From IMG/VR virus record IMGVR_UViG_3300032086_003275, positions 1 to 22,717 of that record: a DNA stretch of 22,717 nucleotides; one strand, 5' to 3'. Of this stretch, positions 2,396 through 21,826 are shown piece by piece. Position numbers and translations under genes: made by a program. The notes beneath the pieces are model-generated. The model saw nothing but the letters and a program-made list of their open reading frames with translations, did not search any database and was not told the origin of the DNA. The DNA comes from a virus. Each line of letters opens with the position of its first letter. The stretch's first letter is position 1.

Positions 2396-3157
2396 TTAGA
2401 TGCCTATTTTTTCGAGAAGCTCTTTTGACGTATCAACGTACCATAAAGGTGTTGTTTCTCTCTCATTTTTTGGGTTTGGAACATTTTTTCCGAACTCTAG
2501 CCCCTTGTCTGTTACAGACTTAAACTTCTTAACCTTGTCGCCAGTAGATGGCCGTTCCTTCTCTTCCAGCAACCCCTCAGCCATTAGCAGTTTGTTTGCC
2601 GCTATAGCACTGATTCCTACGTCGTTGTCATCAAGGATGCGCTTTATAGCTTTGGCGGGTCGATTGTCTTCCGACTCCGAATAGTTGGGCAGGAAGCTAG
2701 AATCTACGCCGTTAGATTGGCATAGCCTATGAATTACACCAATCTTCCCCGACTCTGACAGATTTAAGGTTCTCATAGCCATTTCGGCAAAAGTAGCCTG
2801 AACCTCATGTTTGGCAACGCATGAAGACTCCAAGCTGTATGATCCAGTCTTTCGTATAGACGGAAGAACTTCGCTAGTAACCCAATCTGAAAACGGTTCA
2901 GCCTTTGGTTTATCGGAGCGAAGCACAACCTTGTAAAAACCTGACTCAGACACGATAGTCGTATTTGGGTTGCCGCGATTACCGTCGTTTAGGGCTACGG
3001 TATTCTTTTCGTTATTTTTCAGGCGGGTTGCTACGTGGCGAGAGTTTTCAATCCCCAGAACATCGCAGATGTCTTTAAGTACAAACCAGATGGAGCCATC
3101 TTCATGTTGAACGGTACGGACTTTTTGAGAATTGAAATTAAAAGGGTTGATATTCAT
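2396..3157 (-). CDS. Phage antirepressor with BRO-N domain
   Basis: 253 aa from the chosen ATG at 3157. The N-terminal ~100 residues are a BRO-N domain: FNFNSQKVRTV, then WFVLKDICDVLGI, ESGFYKVVLRS and the SDWVTSEVLPSIRKTGSY block. BRO-N antirepressors bind DNA or repressor proteins and inactivate the prophage repressor. The C-terminal half (about 150-253) resembles the Lys-rich C-terminal module of phage antirepressors that ends near a LLEKIG-like motif. The frame is open 28 codons further upstream to an ATG at 3241, but the extra segment does not resemble the family, and BRO-N proteins usually start just before FNFN. The gene lies divergent to the tailspike gene, as in the P22 immunity-I/gene 9 region. 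Strong for family, weaker for start because neither start has a clear Shine-Dalgarno. Confidence 0.85.
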   Translation of the reverse strand: MNINPFNFNSQKVRTVQHEDGSIWFVLKDICDVLGIENSRHVATRLKNNEKNTVALNDGNRGNPNTTIVSESGFYKVVLRSDKPKAEPFSDWVTSEVLPSIRKTGSYSLESSCVAKHEVQATFAEMAMRTLNLSESGKIGVIHRLCQSNGVDSSFLPNYSESEDNRPAKAIKRILDDNDVGISAIAANKLLMAEGLLEEKERPSTGDKVKKFKSVTDKGLEFGKNVPNPKNERETTPLWYVDTSKELLEKIGI

Positions 3158-3298
3158 TAGAGTTTTACCAAGTGTTATGGTGGGGCTACTCGGGTGGAAG
3201 ATGAGCGGCGTAATTCGCCCAAACCTTTCGCCCCATAACAAGTATTACGCTCGGTACTGCACTTTGTTGCTTAGCTTCCACACTTTGCAACTGACTTA

Positions 3299-3463: not shown

Positions 3464-5728
3464 ATGGCCAATCTAGTTGAGCTGGGCATCCAGTATTTTA
3501 ATGATCCTGTTCGGGGTAGACCCATTTATCGTGGCTACATCTATGTAGGCGAGCCTGACACCGATCCAGAGGACATTCCGAACAATCTCAAGGACATATC
3601 AGTAATCACGGCGGACGGCACTACGCTTGCTGTATCCCAGCCGCTCAGAACCAATACGGGTGGCAACCCCACTTACAATGGTGAGCCTGTCGGAATAGTT
3701 ACCGACGGAGCCTATTCGTTGTTGGTGCAGGACTCGGCACAGAGAGATAAGTTCTATGTCAGGAATAACACCCAAATAAATAACTCCCTTACTCTTGGGG
3801 ATATATCAACCAACGGCATATATGCGTGGCAGTCTACTCTTGAATACCAGATGGGTTCTTATTCGATAGGTTCCGATAGAATTGTATATGAGTCAATCTC
3901 TAGCTCTAATACCGGTAATGATCCGGCGAATGATGGCGGCTCGAACTGGGTTGTATGGCAACCTCAGGATAAGGTTCAGAACGTCGCCGCATTGAGGCTA
4001 ACAGAGCCGCGCACGGATGGCGAGACAGTGACTGTTATAGAGCACACCTATGGTGGCATAGGTGGCGGCAGATTCCAGTATGACGCATCAGACAACTCAA
4101 CTCCCGATGACAACGGTGTAACTTTTGTAACCTCTGGTGGCGCCAGATGGAAAAGACAAGATGCGCCTACTCACATAACCCCATCAATGTTTGGTGCGTA
4201 CACAGACGAAACCAATGGATCGGCTACAACCACGGCGCTTAACAACTGGTTCGATTACTGTAACGTTAATGGTGGAGGATGCGTGGACATAGATGCATTC
4301 TATTTGTTTGATTCCACAATAGATAAGACAGTGCTAGGAACAAGTTCAATTGACTATGACATGAATACCGCAACATTTGTTCCTTCTGCCGACTTTAAGC
4401 CGTTCGAACTTACCCTGTCTGGAACCGCAGCCAGAAATCCGAGGAAGGTTTTTAGGGGGTGGCGCGTAAATGTTAAGAACATCTCAACTCTAGAAACCGC
4501 TGTATGGACGCTCAACAACTGCACTACTTTCTCGTTTTTCGGGTCTAGTATGTACAACGATGAGGTTAGCACTGGAGCCGCGAACGGTCATGCCGTGTGC
4601 TGGATGTTTGATTGTGTTAATGCAGCAGACTCAAATTGGTCTGAAAACATGCACTTCTATGATACATATGCCCATACACCAAGACGAGTATTCAATTTCC
4701 GACGTACTGCTGGCGGAGTCGCCCCAAAGAACAGCTTCGCCCGAACCATTATCAAAGACCTGTTTGTGGCAACGGGGGAGACTGGAGGTCAAAAGCCAGA
4801 CTATTTGATTGCTGTTGCGTCCGATGTGGCCGTGTATGACTCCAAAATAGATGGGGTGTATGGTAACAACGAGGGGGATGCAACATGTTTCTTCTGGAAT
4901 GGTGATGGCCAGAACACAACCTGCTCCGGTGTCCGCATAGAATCGGGTGGAGGTTTTTTATGTGACCTTGGGTCGGGGGGGACTAGAAAGCCTAGATTCT
5001 TGGACATAGAAGATAACTTTGGGTTTGGGGACGGGTTGTTCAAGGGAAGTTACGACAATATCGACGGTATCGTCGGCGTTGGAATGTACCCTTTTGCTAA
5101 AACTCCGTCCGTATTTTTGGATGATTTTAAATACCTCAAGTCGGGAACAGCTACCTCTGCGGCAGCGTCTGTTCTTACTGATTCGACGGCATCATTCCCA
5201 GTGACTGGTGATGGATTGGTGGGTAGCACAGTAACTAATGTTAGTGACGGATCTAGCGGAACCATTACGGCCAACACGGCCACGACCGTAGATGCTGTTT
5301 TATCGGGCGGCGGGTCTAACACTTGGTCAGTGTCTGACATATATCTAATTGATAAGTTTGTGGTGGATACTCCCAGTATCTCAGGAACTAATGGGCGCGC
5401 CCATTTCGGGGTTATTGAGGATTGCGTAAAAGATCAATGGTATGAATTTCCTTACGCTAGAGCTAGGGGTGCATATCTAATAAATATTGCCGGAACACCT
5501 AACGACACTCCGGCGTATGTTTATGCTATGGCGGATGACTCTGTGTCTAACGGGTCTTCTTCATTCTCTGCTCTCACTTCTGCTGTTCCAGCTAGCGGGG
5601 AAACGATTGAGGTTAGGTGGCCGTCAGGATCTTCTGCACCTGAGTTCAGGTGGACTTCAGGGGCTAGAACAGATCCTTTATCAATATCATTCTCCTATAT
5701 CGGTACAGATGACGGATTCAGAGGTTAG
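3464..5728 (+). CDS. Tailspike with P22-type head-binding N-terminus
   Basis: 754 aa receptor-binding and probably polysaccharide-degrading spike at the tail tip. Residues 1-110 match the P22 tailspike head-binding pattern: RPIYRGYIYVGEPDTDP, then VSQPLRTNTGGNPTYNGEPV and a VQD-x-F-YVRN ending. Residues about 115-168 form a small Trp/Tyr-rich module (AWQS, MGSYSIGSDRIVYES, WVVW). From about 235 (ITPSMFGAYTDET) the sequence looks like the start of a right-handed parallel beta-helix, common in pectin-lyase-type spikes. Residues about 559-630 form a Gly/Ser/Thr-rich module (DSTASFPV, VTNVSDGSSGTI) also seen in other phage structural proteins. Catalytic residues cannot be assigned by eye. The start has AAGGT 8 nt upstream. 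The stop overlaps that of the opposing gene at 5725. Confidence 0.88.
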   Translation: MANLVELGIQYFNDPVRGRPIYRGYIYVGEPDTDPEDIPNNLKDISVITADGTTLAVSQPLRTNTGGNPTYNGEPVGIVTDGAYSLLVQDSAQRDKFYVRNNTQINNSLTLGDISTNGIYAWQSTLEYQMGSYSIGSDRIVYESISSSNTGNDPANDGGSNWVVWQPQDKVQNVAALRLTEPRTDGETVTVIEHTYGGIGGGRFQYDASDNSTPDDNGVTFVTSGGARWKRQDAPTHITPSMFGAYTDETNGSATTTALNNWFDYCNVNGGGCVDIDAFYLFDSTIDKTVLGTSSIDYDMNTATFVPSADFKPFELTLSGTAARNPRKVFRGWRVNVKNISTLETAVWTLNNCTTFSFFGSSMYNDEVSTGAANGHAVCWMFDCVNAADSNWSENMHFYDTYAHTPRRVFNFRRTAGGVAPKNSFARTIIKDLFVATGETGGQKPDYLIAVASDVAVYDSKIDGVYGNNEGDATCFFWNGDGQNTTCSGVRIESGGGFLCDLGSGGTRKPRFLDIEDNFGFGDGLFKGSYDNIDGIVGVGMYPFAKTPSVFLDDFKYLKSGTATSAAASVLTDSTASFPVTGDGLVGSTVTNVSDGSSGTITANTATTVDAVLSGGGSNTWSVSDIYLIDKFVVDTPSISGTNGRAHFGVIEDCVKDQWYEFPYARARGAYLINIAGTPNDTPAYVYAMADDSVSNGSSSFSALTSAVPASGETIEVRWPSGSSAPEFRWTSGARTDPLSISFSYIGTDDGFRG

Positions 5729-7206: not shown

Positions 7207-7971
7207 GTGACAATGAAATACAGGTGTCTTAACGACAGCATAGCATGGTTTAACAAGGGCGGCATATATGAGTGCGTGACATATGACGAGTCTAGCAACA
7301 TGAATGGATTGGTGGATGGTGACGGTAGCGTTGTTTATGTTAATCTTGGCAGCAATGATTGGGAGCTGGTGGAGGATGATGAGATTTTAGGCATGTTTAT
7401 ATTTAAGGATCATGGTTTCAGTGGTAAATTCGTTAGTCAAAAATATGAAATAGGCAGGAAGGACGAAGACGGCAAACTTTTTGTTTTTTGCCAGAAAAAA
7501 AAGGAATTTACGCCATCTAATGACTGTTATTTTCACGGCAAGATTGAACTCCGGTTAATGAAGAACAGCAAGACTGGCGGCGTTTTTCGGGCTGCTTACT
7601 CTTATAATGACGAGGATGGATGCCACGAAATAGTTTATGTATCGGAAAGCGAAGAGCATGGACTAGCCATAGGAATTGACTCAGACCACGAGTCATGGGA
7701 ATACTTGGATAGCACCTCTGTAGACCTTAATGATACTGACGGTGACGATAATGTTAACCACCCTAGCCATTACACGAGTCACCCGAGTGGCGTGGAGTGC
7801 ATCCAGATAACCGAGCACATGGGTTTTTGTTTGGGTAACGCGATGAAGTACATTTGGAGAGCAGACTTAAAGGGCAAGGACATCGAGGATTTAAAAAAAG
7901 CAGCTTGGTATATTAATCGAGAAATCGAAAAGCGCCTCAAACAAGAGACGCCACAAGATCCTCAAGGATAG
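7207..7971 (+). CDS. DUF3310-like protein with N-terminal repeated modules
   Basis: 254 aa from GTG at 7207, chosen because GGAGG ends 8 nt before it; the ATG at 7213 would be too far. Residues about 7-55 form a KGGIYEC...VYVN...DWELV module, and a looser second copy ends SWEYL near residue 168. The C-terminal ~60 residues, beginning VNHPSHY and containing GVECIQITEHM, GNAMKYIWRADLKG and DLKKAAWYINREI, are a textbook DUF3310 domain. Small DUF3310 proteins are common in phages, and some are related to T7 gp1.7 nucleotide kinase, so a nucleotide-metabolism role is possible. The extra N-terminal modules are unusual, since DUF3310 is often a short stand-alone protein. The gene end overlaps the opposing gene by 35 nt. 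Confidence 0.85.
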   Translation: MTMKYRCLNDSIAWFNKGGIYECVTYDESSNMNGLVDGDGSVVYVNLGSNDWELVEDDEILGMFIFKDHGFSGKFVSQKYEIGRKDEDGKLFVFCQKKKEFTPSNDCYFHGKIELRLMKNSKTGGVFRAAYSYNDEDGCHEIVYVSESEEHGLAIGIDSDHESWEYLDSTSVDLNDTDGDDNVNHPSHYTSHPSGVECIQITEHMGFCLGNAMKYIWRADLKGKDIEDLKKAAWYINREIEKRLKQETPQDPQG

Positions 7972-8446: not shown

Positions 8447-9816
8447 TAAGTTAAGTCCAGTCTGCAAAACGTCATTTTTGATGCGGTGTAGCCGCGCATC
8501 CGTATGGTGAACCAGTTTCTGATGTAGCCAAGCCTTCGTAGAATAAACCTCTTGTCGTATTCCCCAAAGTCGCCATATGACATTCTCACTTCTTTGCCAA
8601 ATGTAAGCCCATCCCGCCCTAGGGAGACAAATACCGTGTCGTCATCATTTATTCCAGCTATGGTTTCTGCTTCCAGCTTGTTTATGGCCTGTGCTGGCAT
8701 TTTGATTAGCGGCGTAAATATTTCCCACTGAGCGCGTTCACCATATTGTAGACATTGCGAGGTGTTTATTGATGCGAATGTGCCATTGTTTTTATTCCCA
8801 TAGACCCACTTGTCACCATTGAATACGCCATTAATGGCTTGGTAATTTTCATTTCGACCACTGCCAAGACGATACCAAGCCACACTTGCTGGAAGGCCTA
8901 GATTGCAAGCTAGTGTCTTTGCTGGAAGATGTATAATTAGCGTGGCTTGCCCTTCGATGGTTCTACCTTCCAGCCTTATGCCACTTAATTCTATCTCGCT
9001 AAATTCCGCCAAAACCTTCTCTATCTCTCGGTTAGAAACCTTCTTATATTGCCCTAAAGATACTGCATACACGGCTAAGGATTCATTCTTTTTGCCACCA
9101 ACAATGTAGTGCGACCCATTAACCTCGGTGACAGCATGAGAGGACACGACACCAAGTTTTAGCGTGTTTGACTGCAGATAATCAAAGGCAAACTCCGATC
9201 CCCCTGACGGCTGAAAGTAGCTAATTGACTCTCTATCCAGAACCATTAGCTTGTTATCGTCGGTCTTTTGTAGTGCCAATGTTGGGTCTGGCGAGTACTC
9301 GGAGGTAGCAAAACTGAATGGACTTATTTCCTCCTCGTTGGTGATGTCGGTGTGATATATGTTTTCGCCATCGGTGAATACGTAATATCCACCTATCCAT
9401 ATACCATCAATAGGATTTCCTAGTTCTTCGTCAACAATTTGGCGGAACCCAACAGAATCATCATACAGATAGTAGTTGCCGCCAGCTATGATAGCCTGAG
9501 TATTGAACGAATACGGCATTGATACTTGCTCAACACCTGCAACAGTACCGAGTCTCGTGGCTACGCCATTAGAGCTTATCTCGAAAAATCCAGAACCGAC
9601 AACGGCGTAATGCTTATTCATTCTACGATTGTAGATGGCGCCACGACACAAGCTCTCCCCATCAACACTGGCGAATTGATCTAGTCCGTATTCCTGTTGC
9701 ATGTACGCCTCGGATTGAAACATCCTCTTTAGCACTGCATACATATTGAGAGGCATTGCGTCACGAAAGTCGTTATCGTCGCCCCTCTTATCTCCTGACA
9801 CCAAATCAACAATCAT
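8446..9816 (-). CDS. P22 gp10-like tail adaptor / packaged-DNA stabilisation protein
   Basis: 456 aa from the ATG at 9816, close to the 472 aa of P22 gp10. Several blocks line up with gp10 as I remember it: the N-terminal DFRDAMPLNMYAV (gp10 YIDYLPINMLA), LIIHLPAKTL (LIIHLPRHVL), IFTPLIKMPAQAINKLE (LFTPLFKADNARCFDLE), LTFGKEVRM (INYGREQMI) and EYDKRFILRRLGYIR (VYDKRVLWKRVGRIR). gp10 closes the portal channel below gp4 and receives the needle and spikes. The frame runs upstream to an ATG at 9858, but that start lacks a ribosome site, whereas GGGTGA lies just before 9816 and the N-terminus then matches gp10. It is followed by the needle-like gene. It is on the opposite strand to the ejection protein and tailspike. 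Confidence 0.85.
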   Translation of the reverse strand: MIVDLVSGDKRGDDNDFRDAMPLNMYAVLKRMFQSEAYMQQEYGLDQFASVDGESLCRGAIYNRRMNKHYAVVGSGFFEISSNGVATRLGTVAGVEQVSMPYSFNTQAIIAGGNYYLYDDSVGFRQIVDEELGNPIDGIWIGGYYVFTDGENIYHTDITNEEEISPFSFATSEYSPDPTLALQKTDDNKLMVLDRESISYFQPSGGSEFAFDYLQSNTLKLGVVSSHAVTEVNGSHYIVGGKKNESLAVYAVSLGQYKKVSNREIEKVLAEFSEIELSGIRLEGRTIEGQATLIIHLPAKTLACNLGLPASVAWYRLGSGRNENYQAINGVFNGDKWVYGNKNNGTFASINTSQCLQYGERAQWEIFTPLIKMPAQAINKLEAETIAGINDDDTVFVSLGRDGLTFGKEVRMSYGDFGEYDKRFILRRLGYIRNWFTIRMRGYTASKMTFCRLDLT

Positions 9817-9818
9817 CC

Positions 9819-9863
9819 TGTCACCCAATAAGCTGCAATAATATAAAATTACGCTCATTATAA
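9819..9863. promoter_or_regulatory. Two-box repeated element, copy 1
   Basis: Box A TGTCACCCAATAAGCTGCA (9819-9837), a 19-nt spacer, then box B ATTATAA (9857-9863). The same layout with one change in box A and identical spacing recurs at 10863-10907, while the spacer is mostly different. The boxes sit between the gp10-like gene (-) and a tiny + strand reading frame. Box B contains TATAAT on both strands, so the direction is open: on + it would be a -10 with an upstream activator box; on - box A would lie in the gp10 leader, where GGGTGA can also serve as its ribosome site. Confidence 0.5.
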
Positions 9864-14840: not shown

Positions 14841-15009
14841 ACTCCCACTTATCCCTTTCGTGTTGTTGCCACACTCTGGTGTCGTATTTTGTTACTTTTC
14901 CGCCATTAGCTAGATATTTTTCTACATGCCTATCTATTATTTTCTGGCGCTCCCTTGGGCATTCGACATCTTTTATTTCTGATTTTGACGCGAACCTTTT
15001 TGCCGTCAT
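14821..15009 (-). CDS. Small basic protein of unknown function
   Basis: 62 aa, Lys/Arg-rich. GGTGA lies 7 nt before the ATG, which overlaps the gp157 stop (ATGA). A VEKYLANGGKVTKYD block is followed by VWQQHERDKWEYGK. It overlaps the helicase start by 20 nt. Compact overlapping with both neighbours argues it is real; no family recognised. Confidence 0.65.
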   Translation of the reverse strand: MTAKRFASKSEIKDVECPRERQKIIDRHVEKYLANGGKVTKYDTRVWQQHERDKWEYGKIKS

Positions 15010-15497
15010 TTTATTGTCACCGACTTTTCGCCTCTGATAACCTCAACCCCTTTGATTGGATCTTGTTTTGCTCTAGCCAATAGCGCTCTTGCATCTATAG
15101 AGGGAGCTTGCCTCTTAATGCAATCGGCCGGAAGATCTTCTATGTTTGCTGTTACAGCCCCCAGCCTTGGAGCCTTGCTTCTGGTTTTAACCTGAACCTC
15201 TGGGCAGTCAATTGTGACGCCTGTCTTTATAACGCTTTCTAATATGTAATTCTTTAGTCTTCCTGACGCCTTTTCTTTTAGTTTTATTCTGGCATCCACT
15301 GAAGCTTTATGTTGCTTAAATACATCTATTTCTCCCTCTAGCGACTTATACAGAATTGCCATGCTTTTGATTTTTTCGGCCACAGGAGCCTTGTATTCTT
15401 CTAGTGTGTCTTTTACCGCTTTCGGATCATCTAAATCTTCCAGCTGCTTGGCAACAGCTAACAATTCTTCACTTAATTCAAAAAGGCTTTTTGACAT
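15006..15497 (-). CDS. Siphovirus Gp157-like protein
   Basis: 163 aa. It starts with a helical segment (SLFELSEELLAVAKQLED), then EEYKAPVAEKIKSMAILYKSLEGEIDVFKQH, a heptad-rich RIKLKEKASGRLKNYILES, and ends with a beta-rich tail after VTIDCPEVQV. This is the pattern of the Sipho_Gp157 family, found in phage replication and recombination operons and first tied to phage resistance in streptococcal phage studies. Its biochemical role is unsettled. Its start overlaps the small zinc ribbon frame by 20 nt. Confidence 0.75.
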   Translation of the reverse strand: MSKSLFELSEELLAVAKQLEDLDDPKAVKDTLEEYKAPVAEKIKSMAILYKSLEGEIDVFKQHKASVDARIKLKEKASGRLKNYILESVIKTGVTIDCPEVQVKTRSKAPRLGAVTANIEDLPADCIKRQAPSIDARALLARAKQDPIKGVEVIRGEKSVTIK

Positions 15498-16097: not shown

Positions 16098-16679
16098 TTA
16101 GCTAAAAGGGATGTCATCCCCCATATCAGAGCTCTGCACTGGAGCTTGAGGAGCACCAAATGGCGAGGCAGGCGGTGGCGGAGTAAACTGTTGTTGCGTC
16201 TGTTCACGTTTTGGGCGCTTGGTTGGTTTTGGAGGCTCCTCTCCCATGTACGTGCGAATACCGTTAACGTGGTTGCCCTCGTTGCCGTTCATATTCCACG
16301 TATCCAACTTGTAGATTAGCGGCTTACCTATGCAAGCTTGTAGTTGCTCGTTTGTGGGTGCCTGCCCGCTTCCCATGATTCCCGCACCTGTTGCGCCGTC
16401 GATTGCACAAAGAAACTTTACCGCACGCTCAGCCGCCCCCTGCTTAGGGGACATCACTTTAAGTTTCATGAATTGAACTAGATTGTTGTAATGCTGGCCG
16501 CAGTTACGAAACTGCACATTAATTAGCTTTTCGCCTTGGTCTTTTTGATAATCTGCTCTTACCTCTTCCCATGAAATTTTTTCAATATTTGCCAGAAACT
16601 CCGATCCACTCAAAAACACACTGTCGGTCGAATCTGTTTCGAATGAATCTGTTGCCTGTTGTGCCCATAAGTTTGTCAT
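16098..16679 (-). CDS. Phage single-stranded DNA-binding protein
   Basis: 193 aa with GAGGAG 8 nt before the ATG. The N-terminal ~140 residues include YNNLVQFMKLKVMSPKQG and a VNGIRTYMG end of a probable OB fold; the C-terminal part is a low-complexity Pro/Gln linker ending in DMGDDIPFS, close to the DDDIPF tip by which SSBs recruit partners. It binds exposed single strands during replication and annealing. It lies two genes from the Sak4-like ATPase, and Sak4 of phage HK620 is known to be stimulated by its cognate SSB. ATGA overlap with the upstream gene. The call rests mainly on the tail and context. Confidence 0.8.
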   Translation of the reverse strand: MTNLWAQQATDSFETDSTDSVFLSGSEFLANIEKISWEEVRADYQKDQGEKLINVQFRNCGQHYNNLVQFMKLKVMSPKQGAAERAVKFLCAIDGATGAGIMGSGQAPTNEQLQACIGKPLIYKLDTWNMNGNEGNHVNGIRTYMGEEPPKPTKRPKREQTQQQFTPPPPASPFGAPQAPVQSSDMGDDIPFS

Positions 16680-17311
16680 TGCGCATTCTCCTCGATTGAT
16701 TTTACGATTGAACTAACTACATGATAGTACATATTCTTCCCTTCGCTACTGGCCTTCTCTAAAAATTCTTCACTTTTGCCAAAAAAGCACCCTGCCTCAA
16801 TATAGACATAATTTCCATCATAGATAAATTTTAATTCTCTACCCGATCCATCAACATTATTTGCTTGCATAAAATACTTAACGGCTATCTCATTTATTTT
16901 GCAGCCATTACCAAATTCGCAGCCATAACCAAATTTACAGCAATAACCAAATTTGCAACTATCACCAAATTCGCAGAGCCTGCCAATACCGCAATCATCA
17001 ACAAATTCGCATTTATCACCAAAACTGCAGAACCTGCCAAGTTCGCACCCATGACCAAATATGCAATCACAACCAAACTTGCAATCATCACCAAATTCGC
17101 AGTTACCACCAAATTCGCAGTCATCACCAAACTTGCATCCATTGCCGAAATCACAGTAATTGCCAAATTCGCAGTCATTACCAAATTCGCAGCCATAACC
17201 AAACTTACAGCCATTGCCGAATTCGCAGTTATTGCCTATAACCGAAAAGCTTGGCATTTCGGTGCCACTTGGGATTATCCAGCCACCCTTTTCATTAACT
17301 TCAAAGTTCAT
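16676..17311 (-). CDS. Cysteine-ladder hexapeptide-repeat protein, short copy
   Basis: 211 aa. Its middle (about 27-138) is 18 full hexapeptides of form C-x-F-G-x-x, such as CEFGNG and CKFGYG, with 19 cysteines in register. The V/C-x-I/F-G-[DN]-x rhythm is that of left-handed beta-helix (hexapeptide) proteins, with Cys and Phe at the two inward positions; 18 hexads would make six triangular turns. The ends are non-repetitive: MNFEVNEKGGWIIPSG at the start and a C-terminal domain beginning KINEIAVKYF, shared with the copy at 18144-18995. It sits between the Sak4-like ATPase and SSB by ATGA overlaps on both sides. No catalytic motif is seen. Role unknown; a scaffold or metal/redox ladder is conceivable. 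Confidence 0.8.
   Translation of the reverse strand: MNFEVNEKGGWIIPSGTEMPSFSVIGNNCEFGNGCKFGYGCEFGNDCEFGNYCDFGNGCKFGDDCEFGGNCEFGDDCKFGCDCIFGHGCELGRFCSFGDKCEFVDDCGIGRLCEFGDSCKFGYCCKFGYGCEFGNGCKINEIAVKYFMQANNVDGSGRELKFIYDGNYVYIEAGCFFGKSEEFLEKASSEGKNMYYHVVSSIVKSIEENAQ
16758..16840 (-). repeat. 83-bp perfect direct repeat, copy 1
   Basis: Identical base for base to 18226-18308, in the C-terminal coding part of the two hexapeptide-repeat genes. Flanking sequence remains very similar. Recombination between the copies would remove the Sak4-like gene. Confidence 0.9.
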
Positions 17312-18147
17312 TGGTTAAGATCCTCGTTATAAAACTTAATGTATTCAAGTATCGGGTTTTTACCTTTTTCTATGAAAATCTTATCGGGAAAGCTGTATCC
17401 GCGACTCTTGCAATCAAAGGCTATGTCATTATTAAACTCAATAAACACGCTGCCGGATCCGCTTACCCTTCCAGCTTTCTTAAACTTCCCTTCTGTTTCT
17501 GCACCACTAACAAACATTTCCTTGTGCATAAATCCGATAGCATCACAGGCATTTTTATACAGCGCAGTGACATTGCACAACTTTTCTGCCGGAAGCTGCA
17601 TAGAACCCTTCACATATGGATCATGTGAAATTTCATCAACTTTTCGAGTCTCGTAATGACAAATAAACACAATGCCTATGCCGCGCCCCCTAAGGATGTT
17701 GCATACCTTCAGAAAGTTTACGTGTTTTTCTTTGAGCATTTTTTCGCCAGCACCAAACCCTCCGTGAACGTTTTTCATGGTTGGAGTCTTGCCTTTTGCT
17801 ATAAGGTCTTGATCAGCCCAAAGAACTTCATTACACAAAATCTTTTCATTAAGCGATGTAACAGAATCAAACACGACTGTTTTAAAGTCAGATTTTGCAA
17901 CCTCTCTTAGTAATTCCATCAACTGCTCTTCCCTGTCAATGATTGGCGATATACATATATCGCTTAATCCTAGGTCGCCGCACTCATTAACAAGCGTTTC
18001 CTTTCCATCTTCCAGCCTAACAATTAATGGCTTTGGAAATGTTGCACCCAGCAAAGTTTTTCCTACGGCAGGCTCGCCAACAAGCATCAATATTGGAGCA
18101 GATGGCTTTATTTCTGACAGATTTTGGCATTGTGATAATAGACTCAT
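17308..18147 (-). CDS. Sak4-like RecA-fold ATPase (phage recombination)
   Basis: 279 aa. Walker A GEPAVGKT at 24-31, Walker B VVFDS at 91-95, then the sequence NVHGGFGAG and FICHYETRK, which recall the AAA_24 'phage nucleotide-binding protein' family. Sak4 proteins are short RecA relatives that anneal single strands and work with the phage SSB. Here an SSB follows one gene downstream. GAGG 8 nt before the ATG. Both flanking genes encode hexapeptide-repeat paralogues and overlap it by ATGA, so all three are probably translated together. Confidence 0.82.
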   Translation of the reverse strand: MSLLSQCQNLSEIKPSAPILMLVGEPAVGKTLLGATFPKPLIVRLEDGKETLVNECGDLGLSDICISPIIDREEQLMELLREVAKSDFKTVVFDSVTSLNEKILCNEVLWADQDLIAKGKTPTMKNVHGGFGAGEKMLKEKHVNFLKVCNILRGRGIGIVFICHYETRKVDEISHDPYVKGSMQLPAEKLCNVTALYKNACDAIGFMHKEMFVSGAETEGKFKKAGRVSGSGSVFIEFNNDIAFDCKSRGYSFPDKIFIEKGKNPILEYIKFYNEDLNQ

Positions 18148-18995
18148 TTTTGCATCCTCTTGATTTCTTCGCTAATCACCTTAATGATATTAGCGTAGAC
18201 CATTTTTCCTTCGCTATTGGCCTTTTCTAAAAATTCTTCACTTTTGCCAAAAAAGCACCCTGCCTCAATATAGACATAATTTCCATCATAGATAAATTTT
18301 AATTCTCTGCCAGAACCGTCAATATTATTTGCTTGCATAAAATATTTAACGGCTACCTCATTTATTTTGCAGTCATTACCAAATTCGCAACTATTGCCAA
18401 ACTCACAGGCATCACCAAAATTGCAGTAACTACCAAATCCGCAGCCATCACCAAGTTCGCAGCCATCACCAAGTTCGCAGCCATTACCAAGTTCACATCT
18501 ATTGCCAAATTTGCAATCATCACCAAACCTGCAGTAATCACCAAAATTGCAGTAATAACCAAGCTTGCAGCCATTACCAAGTTCGCAGGCATCACTAAGT
18601 TCGCAGGCATTGCCAAGTTCGCAGAACATGCCAAATTTGCAGTCATTACCAAATTTGCAGTACCTGCCAAATTTGCAGAGCCTGCCAAATTCGCAGGCAT
18701 TACCAAGTTCGCAGTAATTGCCAAGCTTGCAGTTACCACCAAATTCGCAATCATCGCCAAATTTGCAGTAATCACCAAATTTGCAGTAATAACCAAGCTT
18801 GCATAACCTACCAAATTTGCAGGCATCACCAAATTCGCAGCAATCACCAAATTTGCAGGCATCACCAAATTCGCAGCAATCACCAAATTTGCAATTATTA
18901 CCTACAGAGGAGTGATATGGTATTTTGGTATTGCTTGGCATTTCGGTGCCACTTGGGATTATCCAGCCACCTTTTTCGTTAACTTCAAAGTTCAT
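18144..18995 (-). CDS. Cysteine-ladder hexapeptide-repeat protein, long copy
   Basis: 283 aa, paralogue of the 211-aa protein at 16676. It has 30 in-register cysteines with 29 hexads (CKFGDY, CEFGGN, CELGNA), 11 more than the short copy, and Leu replaces Phe in several. Two extra cysteines occur in DCC units near the start. N-terminal (MNFEVNEKGGWIIPSGTEMP) and C-terminal (KYFMQANNIDGSGRELKF, EAGCFFGKSEEFLEKA) parts match the short copy closely. A left-handed beta-helix of nearly ten turns is expected. Ribosome site GGGAG 8 nt upstream. It precedes the Sak4-like gene in the operon. Different repeat counts imply expansion or contraction by slippage. Function unknown. Confidence 0.8.
   Translation of the reverse strand: MNFEVNEKGGWIIPSGTEMPSNTKIPYHSSVGNNCKFGDCCEFGDACKFGDCCEFGDACKFGRLCKLGYYCKFGDYCKFGDDCEFGGNCKLGNYCELGNACEFGRLCKFGRYCKFGNDCKFGMFCELGNACELSDACELGNGCKLGYYCNFGDYCRFGDDCKFGNRCELGNGCELGDGCELGDGCGFGSYCNFGDACEFGNSCEFGNDCKINEVAVKYFMQANNIDGSGRELKFIYDGNYVYIEAGCFFGKSEEFLEKANSEGKMVYANIIKVISEEIKRMQK
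18226..18308 (-). repeat. 83-bp perfect direct repeat, copy 2
   Basis: Matches 16758-16840 with no differences, 1468 bp away, same orientation. Confidence 0.9.
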
Positions 18996-19447
18996 TGCCT
19001 ATTCTCCCTTGTTGGTGACATTGACATTATTTTTCCAAAAATGCCCATATTCGGCGTGTAAAACACTAAAGATTTGCCGTTTTTTGATGGCATCAACAGG
19101 ACTGGCTGATTGATGCTTATAAGCAAGTCTATATACTTGATATTAAATGGAATTCCGTAAAAAAAAACAGCGCTTTCGCCGTCATAATCAAATTTTATAT
19201 TTTCCAGCTTAATGGCTGGATAGTGCTTTGAATGATCTATGCATTCTTCTTTAAACATACCTATTAGTATGCGCTTATTCTCCGACAATGACTCTATTGG
19301 TTCACAATCCAATATCGGATCAACGCCTTCAAAGAAGGTTATCATTGCATCATCCTTTATTAAGACTTCATGCTCTCCATCGAAGTATGAAATCCTTTCA
19401 AACAATCTAGAATCTGTCTCGTTCGAGACAAAATTACCGTAATCCAT
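18992..19447 (-). CDS. Hypothetical early-operon protein
   Basis: 151 aa with GAGGAG before the ATG; that site overlaps the stop region of the primase-helicase gene 6 nt upstream. Acidic N-terminal part (DYGNFVSNETDSRLFERISYFDGEHEV) and a beta-rich middle (IKLENIKFDYDGESAVFFYG). Its stop overlaps the long hexapeptide gene (ATGA). No family recognised. Operon position suggests a replication- or recombination-linked role. Confidence 0.7.
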   Translation of the reverse strand: MDYGNFVSNETDSRLFERISYFDGEHEVLIKDDAMITFFEGVDPILDCEPIESLSENKRILIGMFKEECIDHSKHYPAIKLENIKFDYDGESAVFFYGIPFNIKYIDLLISINQPVLLMPSKNGKSLVFYTPNMGIFGKIMSMSPTRENRQ

Positions 19448-19453
19448 AACTCC

Positions 19454-21826
19454 TCACTTGTAGTACTTTTTTGTACCGCGCTTTGTCTTTGTTACCTTAA
19501 TCTTAGCCGACATCTCTAGTTCTTCCAGCGCTTTTTTAACTTCATCAGCGCCATATTTTCGATTGTCACTGTAACTCCTTATTTCGGCGCAAGACATGGC
19601 TAGAGACTTTCCTCGCTTAACAGTTTTGAGCACCACATTAACCACAGCCTCGCTCCTGTCATCGAAAGCAACAGAAGCGTTAGTGGTGGCAATTTCAACC
19701 TTATTTCGAATATCGTTTAGCACAAACGCAAACGCCCACCTAACATGCTCTGCAGTTCGATACCTAACGGACGTGTTGCTGGAAGAAGTGCATAGACTCA
19801 AAATAAAGCTAACCTTATCAATCATCTCGTAGGCTCGCCTAGATAGCGGAGTAGTGCCGTGCTTTCGAAGACCTTCACCAAGTCCATGAATGTATTCGCT
19901 AATGTCCTCCATTAATTGCGCGGCCTCTGGAGAGGTACCTACTGGTTTGCGCTTCTTTGGTGCCCTTATGCCAATTTCCTTGAATCTGGCTTCCGTCTCA
20001 ACTCCGCACGTCAACGCTTTTAATGCCATCTTCATGTCTTCAGTCATTGGCGTCTTTCGGAAACCCTTCTTGAATCTAGGGTTGTCATTGAACTCCTCAG
20101 CAATAAACGCTCGACCGAAAAAACCGTCCTGAATTTTTTCGTGGTCAACCATTTTGTTAAAATTCTCTGGAGTTGATAAACCAAGCATATTTAGCGACAC
20201 GCCATTGAATGAGTTGGCAGCAAGGTAGTTTTCATTGTCGTATTGATATTCTTCAAGCAAAGCCTTTAGGTATATCTCTCGCTCCTCTGTTATCTGGTCG
20301 TCGCCTTCGTAACCCTCCTCTAGGTCGGCCTTGATTTTGGCGATATGCTTGTCTCTGGCAGCTAGGAATGTCTTAAACTCTGTTTTCCGTCCACCCCAGC
20401 GTTTATCACCCTTGGTGAATCCAGCTGTGAACTGCTTAACCATTCCAGCATTGTGGCCGCCGTTCTTGTTGATTAAGTTTAGCTCCTGCCCAACTTCATC
20501 AATGACATATGAGCCGATCTGGCTATCAAAAAGGTTCCGCTGTATCTCCTGTGATGACATGGTTTCGCCTTGGTTAGCGTCGCCCATACCTGATATGTGG
20601 AACACTTCGTTAACACCTTCCAGAACCGTATCTTTACCCGTTCCAGAAGGCGCAATACAAAATGCGTAAACGTTTGTCTTGAGTGGCTCACCCGTTTCGC
20701 TATCGCAGTGACTCAGACTACCAAGAGCTCCAACAGAATAAAGCGCACCCATTACGCACAACCGCTTAGTGTTTGTGCGTCCATTAGCTTCCATCCAGTC
20801 GGCAAGCTCACCCACAAAGTCAGGAGGGTTAAGCAAATCTACCTTGCTCACATCAACAGGGAGAGTTAGGTCTTCCTCGCTATTTTTTAGCTGAGCGTTT
20901 ATCTCTCTGCGTACTACGTCGATATTGGATAGTTGTCGCAAGTCATCCCAATCCCCAGATTTTGCGCCGTACTGCTCAAAGCGTGGCATCGAATAAGGGA
21001 GTTCGGTAGCAAGCGCAACCTCCAAGCCTTTATTGGTTTTTTCGTTGTCATTGTCTGCCAGTACCGATAGCTCGAAATCACCCCTCAGAGAATCTGCCAC
21101 GTTTTTGACGTTATCCGCCGTAAAACAAACGATTACTGGAGTGTTTGTAGCACGCCACCCAGTAAGTCCAGTAGCGAACCCTTCGCACAGCCAAGCCTTG
21201 CAGTCCCTCTCGAGCTTGCCAATGACAAAAAACCCATAGCTTTGGGTTCCATAGATGTATTTTTTTCCTGTACCAGTTATAACTTGGATACCAACAGTGT
21301 CGCCCTTTCGGTTTTTTGCTGGAAGAAGCAGTGATCCGTCTCTATTTGATTTCACACCCTCGCAGCATGGCGGCAGCTCTAGACGCTTTTTTGTGAGGTA
21401 TCCCTCTTTCCCTGTCGCTGGATCAGCCATGGCATAGGCTGTTAGTGCGTCCTGAAACTTCTTGGCTTTTTCTTCTTCCAACTCTCTTATTCTGGCTTTG
21501 GCCTTCTGCTTTGACTCCTCCATTGCCGCCCTTTGGGCTTCTGTCATTTTGGACTCGGCAACAGGACTCCAGCCTTTGGCCTTGGCCTCACCAAATAGCG
21601 CACCTTCGCCGTTATTGCGCCCATCCGAGTGATCCCATGCCTTCCTGAAGGCGTATTCCGTAAACCTCTCTGGATCGCTAGCAGACCACTCCCTAGCTAT
21701 CTCCCTGCCGTCCTCACCCAGATAATGCTTAATACACAGTATGTATTTGATCCATTGGTCTTGTGAGTATTCACAACAGTTCATCCACTCCAGTGCGTTT
21801 ATTGTTCTACTGTATCTATCCATCAA
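19454..21826 (-). CDS. TOPRIM primase / P-loop helicase fusion
   Basis: 790 aa. Residues about 11-70 (WIKYILCIKHYLGEDGREIAREW, AFRKAWDHSD) look like a primase C-terminal (PriCT) domain, followed by a charged helical linker (95-125). A TOPRIM-type unit spans about 200-300: WLCEGFATG with Glu215, FTADNVKNV, then LADND with Asp258/Asp260 and GDWDDL. From about 340 a DUF3987-like helicase lobe has Walker A APSGTGKDT (392-400) and Walker B VIDEV (441-445). The protein would prime and unwind at the phage fork. No separate prim-pol or zinc-binding primase domain is visible at the N-terminus. GGAG lies 7 nt before the first ATG of two. The end has a basic winged-helix-like tail. Confidence 0.82.
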   Translation of the reverse strand: MMDRYSRTINALEWMNCCEYSQDQWIKYILCIKHYLGEDGREIAREWSASDPERFTEYAFRKAWDHSDGRNNGEGALFGEAKAKGWSPVAESKMTEAQRAAMEESKQKAKARIRELEEEKAKKFQDALTAYAMADPATGKEGYLTKKRLELPPCCEGVKSNRDGSLLLPAKNRKGDTVGIQVITGTGKKYIYGTQSYGFFVIGKLERDCKAWLCEGFATGLTGWRATNTPVIVCFTADNVKNVADSLRGDFELSVLADNDNEKTNKGLEVALATELPYSMPRFEQYGAKSGDWDDLRQLSNIDVVRREINAQLKNSEEDLTLPVDVSKVDLLNPPDFVGELADWMEANGRTNTKRLCVMGALYSVGALGSLSHCDSETGEPLKTNVYAFCIAPSGTGKDTVLEGVNEVFHISGMGDANQGETMSSQEIQRNLFDSQIGSYVIDEVGQELNLINKNGGHNAGMVKQFTAGFTKGDKRWGGRKTEFKTFLAARDKHIAKIKADLEEGYEGDDQITEEREIYLKALLEEYQYDNENYLAANSFNGVSLNMLGLSTPENFNKMVDHEKIQDGFFGRAFIAEEFNDNPRFKKGFRKTPMTEDMKMALKALTCGVETEARFKEIGIRAPKKRKPVGTSPEAAQLMEDISEYIHGLGEGLRKHGTTPLSRRAYEMIDKVSFILSLCTSSSNTSVRYRTAEHVRWAFAFVLNDIRNKVEIATTNASVAFDDRSEAVVNVVLKTVKRGKSLAMSCAEIRSYSDNRKYGADEVKKALEELEMSAKIKVTKTKRGTKKYYK

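Follow-up and report, generated by a model that had tools for sequence, protein, structure and literature searches.

Left-handed beta-helix proteins such as LpxA, LpxD and GlmU, represented in Pfam by Hexapep (PF00132), share the hexad period and the hydrophobic-Gly-x-x-small phase with the two Cys-ladder proteins described here. Compared to LpxA-type proteins, the latter carry Cys at the small position and Phe or Leu at the aliphatic position, and have neither a conserved His nor a significant structural match. A C-terminal domain matching Cys-ladder members is found in PHROG 7964 and 20532, which comprise phage proteins of unknown function, but their best-scoring isolate members contain Ala-hexad repeats of the YdcK/Bactofilin type instead of a Cys/Phe core. 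Phage proteins assigned to the YdcK beta solenoid (PF18836) or Bactofilin (PF04519) include phiRM10 gp34 and proteins of Curvibacter P26059A and Mannheimia 587AP2. Based on profile comparison, their C-terminal head is homologous to that of the ladder proteins, and the phiRM10 and Mannheimia 587AP2 copies are located in the early recombination region like the genes studied here, but they differ in their A-x-V-[YS]-G-[ND] repeats and in having another N-terminal cap. The head of the pentapeptide-repeat protein gp3 of EBPR siphovirus 1 also matches phrog_20532 (1.7e-12), while its repeats are of the period-5 A-N-L-S-G type (PF00805, 2e-31). Stacked Cys residues are known from two unrelated proteins. 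In the fucoidan lyase FdlA, a Cys ladder in the core was proposed to be stabilising and not catalytic (PMC9410043); it consists of five Cys in one stack, versus 19 to 30 on a hexad period in the proteins of this study. For the LRR protein InlJ, a Cys ladder in the beta-solenoid is named in the title of a work cited in PMC3196904.

The window, i.e. the whole stretch of 22,717 nucleotides that was analysed (IMG/VR record IMGVR_UViG_3300032086_003275), encodes tailspike-type Head_binding and Phage_stabilise proteins, which suggest that the virus is a P22-like podovirus. Both ladder genes are located in a minus-strand operon with the order primase-type gene, 151-aa unknown, 283-aa ladder, Sak4, 211-aa ladder, SSB, 144-aa HNH-like ORF, Gam-like gene and helicase (Table 1). 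The 144-aa ORF was read as HNH-like from its motif; a Pfam search gave no match. Around the ladder genes, four junctions (16676/16679, 17308/17311, 18144/18147 and 18992/18995) overlap by 4 nt (ATGA). The translationally coupled arrangement proposed in the first-pass annotation of this DNA is therefore real, and its identification of the Sak4 and SSB genes was borne out by PHROG matches.

Table 1. Features of the ladder operon in the window
Feature	Coordinates	Strand	Basis
Primase/helicase-type replication protein, head of operon	19454..21826	-	phrog_3022 2e-65, PriCT_2, Toprim_3
151-aa protein, 4-nt overlap with 283-aa gene	18992..19447	-	ORF; no match in Pfam, PHROG, NCBIfam
283-aa Cys-hexad solenoid protein	18144..18995	-	ORF; Pfam Hexapep 3.9e-22; AF2 pLDDT 93.5, pTM 0.84
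N-terminal cap 'MNFEVNEKGGWIIPSGTEMPS', residues 1-34 of 283-aa protein, common to L031, L081, L125	18894..18995	-	Alignment
29 C-x-[FL]-G-x-x hexads, residues 35-208 of 283-aa protein	18372..18893	-	Sequence; TRF 18-nt array 18369-18893; AF2 EE---- every 6 residues
Constant C-terminal domain and stop codon, residues 209-283 of 283-aa protein, bbbb-aa, GCFFG motif	18144..18371	-	phrog_7964; profile-based homology across solenoid classes; AF2
Sak4-like single-strand annealing recombinase, between the two paralogues	17308..18147	-	phrog_124 1e-23; Pfam AAA_24 8e-15
211-aa Cys-hexad solenoid protein, paralogue of 283-aa protein	16676..17311	-	ORF; identity; AF2 pLDDT 85.7, pTM 0.58
18 hexads, residues 29-136 of 211-aa protein	16904..17227	-	Sequence; TRF 16901-17233
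Constant C-terminal domain and stop codon, residues 137-211 of 211-aa protein	16676..16903	-	Near-identical DNA to 283-aa copy; phrog_7964 5e-4
Phage SSB	16098..16679	-	phrog_9002 1e-15; acidic ...DDIPFS tail
Gam-like / Sipho_Gp157 protein	15006..15497	-	phrog_253 5e-24; PF05565 9e-19

The ORFs, Tandem Repeats Finder and Hexapep matches confirmed the 18 and 29 hexads with 19 and 30 in-register Cys that had been counted in the first-pass annotation, the last Cys of each series following the final hexad at residue 137 of the 211-aa and residue 209 of the 283-aa protein. In each protein, a single hexad is without the Gly (CEFVDD; CELSDA). Both the 18-nt arrays (18.5 and 29 copies) and the Hexapep scores (E=2e-13 and 4e-22 for the 211- and 283-aa proteins) are far beyond chance. 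Some long open frames read from the other strand or another frame, such as 18333-18806 (+), arise as a side effect of the 18-nt repeat. The conserved ends reported earlier were found as well: the two proteins share approximately 70% identity (71% by alignment) and the DNA of their C-terminal domains is nearly identical, whereas array length and surface residues differ between them. Identical copies of both proteins are encoded in a sibling contig (IMGVR_UViG_3300031841_004375, L005), which argues against an assembly artefact. Within the explanation favoured below, the pair would have arisen by recent duplication of an early accessory gene.

A hexad beta-solenoid is predicted for the arrays based on sequence profiles and AF2 modelling. 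PF00132 matched in phase with [LIV]-[GAED]-x2-[STAV]-x at 49.7 and 77.4 bits (cut-off 27). The AF2 models, for which the window proteins and their IMG/VR relatives formed the only input, showed a two-residue strand every six residues along the arrays and a bbbb-aa C-terminal domain set apart from them. The model of the 211-aa protein is weak at about residues 121-140. The left-handed beta-helix of the first-pass annotation is thus supported as a beta-solenoid but not in its handedness. A Foldseek search of both models against the PDB gave no match at E<=0.001 and no LpxA-type protein among the rows listed, although repeat masking may hide matches; the insignificant neighbours listed were mostly right-handed helices (tailspikes, SufB/D, bactofilin, antigen 43). 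Against BFVD, one model found no confident neighbour, its matches at E<=0.001 having a TM of about 0.2-0.3. Matches to Hexapep and LpxD/LpxA/GlmU profiles, and the label 'putative acyltransferase' carried by some phage relatives, would fit a hexapeptide acyltransferase acting on the cell surface or on nucleotide sugars. However, every NCBIfam match lies far under its curated cut-off (TIGR01853, 35.5 and 52.5 bits versus 242.5), the two proteins contain only 2 and 1 His with no conserved His column in the alignment, and the core sequence is strictly periodic without insertion loops. This function is highly improbable and was rejected on the profile cut-offs and the missing His.

A scan of IMG/VR with a DNA pattern of four C-x-[FL]-G hexads gave at least 120 stretches. 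About 70 genuine Cys-ladder proteins could be parsed from the viral stretches, a few matches being GC-rich frame artefacts. With a stricter pattern, 43 stretches were found in bacterial genomes, including around a dozen genuine members in records of, among others, Christensenella, Alistipes, Massilioclostridium and Gallacutalibacter. The N-terminus of most family members reads MKKYTQEEFDALPVVDG.KQCPTGDYS; the two window proteins group with L031, L081 and L125 in a smaller set. Multiple copies per phage were rejected as a general rule, being rare by regular expression, though at several loci another ladder gene lies close by. In a single phage lineage, Cys-hexad genes are accompanied by a further Cys-repeat (Cys-triad) gene, a pairing for which core packing alone gives no explanation.

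Over 1053 parsed hexads, position 1 is Cys in 91% (a lower estimate, since the parser takes in some edge hexads), position 3 is Phe or Leu in 98% and position 4 is Gly in 90%; positions 2, 5 and 6 vary. At position 1 the codons are mixed (TGC 679, TGT 279) while Cys is retained, which shows that Cys is clearly under purifying selection. This retention, the 19 and 30 Cys in register and the co-occurring Cys-triad genes could point to a ladder that is itself functional, by metal, Fe-S or persulfide binding, redox buffering or disulfide switching along the stack. Against this, Cys is replaced in approximately 9% of hexads, in some ladders by Ala, Ser or others (5 Ala in the 16 hexads of L089), the length is free with no preference for multiples of three hexads, and the known FdlA ladder has been interpreted as structural. 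Array length also differs between close relatives. L015 and L101 have 95% identical ends with 41 and 18 hexads, respectively, and the 41-hexad array is present in three contigs; the pairs L035/L094 and L061/L076 have identical ends and different arrays, which may be assembly effects. Repeat-number differences among metagenome contigs may partly reflect assembly collapse; judged from these sequences, array length changes much faster than the protein ends.

The C-terminal head is also found on other repeats. A DNA motif scan for V..GCFxGT..EF collected 115 proteins: 74 Ala-hexad, 20 pentapeptide, 6 Cys-triad, 2 LRR-like, 2 A/V-hexad, 1 Asn-hexad and 10 short or other proteins, the LRR-like and Asn-hexad members being assigned by motif and local sequence, not by profile comparison. 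Using hhalign, the heads of the Cys-hexad, Ala-hexad, pentapeptide and Cys-triad classes aligned with a probability of 99.1-99.8% over 56-84 columns, and of 96.7-98.8% after deletion of the GCF motif, versus 0.1-2.5% in nine column-shuffled controls. The window head itself scored 99.1% against the Cys-ladder profile, 93.7% against the pentapeptide, 91.7% against the Ala-hexad and 46.8% against the Cys-triad profile. PHROG 20532 independently matches members of all four classes. Among the Cys-ladder members, 28 of 37 match PHROG 7964 and 31 of 37 match PHROG 20532; phrog_7964 scores the two window proteins at 5e-4 and 7e-5. On this profile evidence the heads of these four classes are homologous. 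Pfam assigns the repeats to YdcK solenoid/Bactofilin for Ala-hexad members, to Hexapep for Aeromonas phage AeroV_348 and to Pentapeptide for EBPR siphovirus gp3. In AeroV_348, ASVGEWASVGEG has the surface pattern of CSFGEWCSFGEG with A/V replacing C/F, the closest parallel being ASVGEW versus CSFGEW in the ladder proteins, and L226 combines Asn hexads with a window-like C-terminal sequence. Since these repeat classes have the head in common, the solenoid core may be A/V, C/F, V/I or N/L without loss of the head. The same head on Ala, Val or Asn cores and on pentapeptide solenoids further argues against a function of the Cys ladder as such. The metal or redox role suggested for it in the first-pass annotation is disfavoured, and a functional ladder is considered unlikely. 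No function is assigned to the head in PHROG 7964/20532, and it has no significant structural match.

The pentapeptide proteins Qnr and MfpA are DNA mimics that block gyrase. An elongated acidic solenoid could block a host DNA-binding enzyme in the same way, as the head is shared with pentapeptide solenoids and the window proteins are acidic (net charge -17 and -13). Over 68 Cys-hexad proteins, however, the net charge averages -2.1 (sd 6.6) and ranges from -20 to +18, so strong acidity is not common to the family. DNA mimicry is disfavoured as a shared function by this charge distribution, and is quite unlikely as an explanation.

The position of the genes next to Sak4 and SSB had suggested a specific shared role. 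Phage HK620 provides a known case of Sak4 acting with its cognate SSB (PMC5928155). Both solenoids could accordingly be dedicated recombination or replication factors, e.g. a scaffold or regulator of annealing, given the four overlaps within one operon, relatives that adjoin Gam/Rad52/NinB (phiRM10), RecT/exonuclease (Mannheimia 587AP2) or ERF (S. suis phiST1), and RecE-like exonucleases or SSB among the neighbours. In 50 sampled ladder contigs, however, Sak4 was found in only nine, three of these matches being weak, and was adjacent in this phage only; in the other phages the nearest strong Sak4 matches were approximately 5-7 kb from the ladder gene. Sak4 linkage as a family trait was therefore rejected, and a specific role with Sak4/SSB is not supported. 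In 50 contigs of the wider family, RecT was above cut-off in five and ERF in three. By raw counts, the neighbour scans put DNA polymerase, exonuclease, helicase, SSB, methyltransferase, HNH and antirepressor families first, and no structural family was present in the top 25 neighbour families listed. A dedicated recombination factor is considered unlikely. Homologues largely lack the Sak4/SSB link, the outcome that the first-pass annotation had named as refuting its proposal, but they are mostly surrounded by genes for early replication, recombination and DNA modification. Based on these neighbour families, the family is placed in the early region, where recombination genes are often close but no partner is fixed.

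The explanation we favour, with a probability of roughly one half, is a large phage family of early accessory genes whose proteins start with an N-terminal cap, continue in a beta-solenoid stalk that varies in length, and end in a constant head of some 70 aa (four strands, two helices and a GCFxG motif) that would bind a shared partner, the Cys serving as core packing. The stalk would have been exchanged in evolution between A-x-V-x-G-x hexads, C-x-[FL]-G-x-x hexads, pentapeptides and Cys triads, as well as LRR-like repeats and Asn hexads by motif only. In this phage, its core would be packed by Cys and Phe/Leu in place of Ala and Val, with Cys having a structural and not a catalytic role. Because the constant head occurs on interchangeable solenoids and array length changes faster than the ends, Cys/Phe can be regarded as one core-packing solution among several. 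The head may dock on a partner that many phages or hosts share. The stalk, which would be rigid and changeable at its outer positions, could serve as a spacer or offer a surface for binding. Host takeover or counter-defence in early infection would be the likely setting. More tentatively, the family may supply early effectors that diversify against host factors or defences. Many phages would then place the one conserved C-terminal domain on any available beta-solenoid class, be it a hexapeptide stalk with an Ala, Cys, Val or Asn core or a pentapeptide, Cys-triad or LRR-like one, and stalk length and outer residues would change fast.

The claim that such proteins were not yet described stands in part: the matching PHROG families are of unknown function, and nothing relevant came up when the literature was searched for solenoid families of phage hexapeptide or pentapeptide proteins and for left-handed helices in anti-defence, but phage hexapeptide and pentapeptide solenoids are already known as a broad kind. 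The part worth pursuing is the family with a swappable solenoid. Through the shared C-terminal domain, proteins annotated as 'acyltransferase', 'polymer-forming cytoskeletal protein', 'pentapeptide repeat' or hypothetical are joined in one family, in which the whole solenoid with its core chemistry has been replaced in evolution while the C-terminal domain was kept. As the domain is retained while the entire solenoid is replaced, it is the place to look for the function. The family also provides clean natural variants for the effects of a Cys/Phe core, and unusual material on the packing of repeat proteins.

L226, a related stretch, carries an Asn-hexad array (N-x-L-G-x-x), and its C-terminal sequence resembles that of the window proteins; judged from sequence, it appears to be a natural core swap from Cys to Asn. 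The C-terminal head was also observed on proteins with period-3 cysteine repeats, the single one of which tested (L214) gave no Pfam match. In one set of related phages, a second Cys-rich gene composed of (C-x-x)n triads, with ends of its own type (MRYVSSVSPRGNRSWS...), is situated near the Cys-hexad gene. Apart from one antisense artefact, this gene was found in none of 99 loci of relatives carrying the head on other solenoids.

Features of the window and of related stretches (L-numbers)
Feature	Location	Strand	Remark
Bro-N antirepressor-type protein	2399-3241	-	PF02498, 1e-24
P22-type Head_binding tailspike protein	3464-5725	+	
254-aa protein	7207-7968	+	DUF3310 at C-terminus, 3e-16
Phage_stabilise protein	8449-9858	-	
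151-aa protein	18992-19447	-	operon shared with ladder genes
Alternative-frame ORFs	16865-17332, 18333-18806	+	
Alternative-frame ORFs	16894-17214, 18362-18886	-	
Period-3 cysteine repeat with head	L207, L214, L223, L227, L270, L292		phrog_15341
Second Cys-triad gene	L056, L059, L063, L092, L097, L101, L105, L115, L121, L028/L069		

The long alternative-frame ORFs over the window repeats are generated by the 18-nt repeat and are likely non-genes. For the 151-aa protein, no matches were obtained in Pfam, PHROG or NCBIfam. The Head_binding tailspike and Phage_stabilise proteins suggest that the window phage is a P22-like podovirus.
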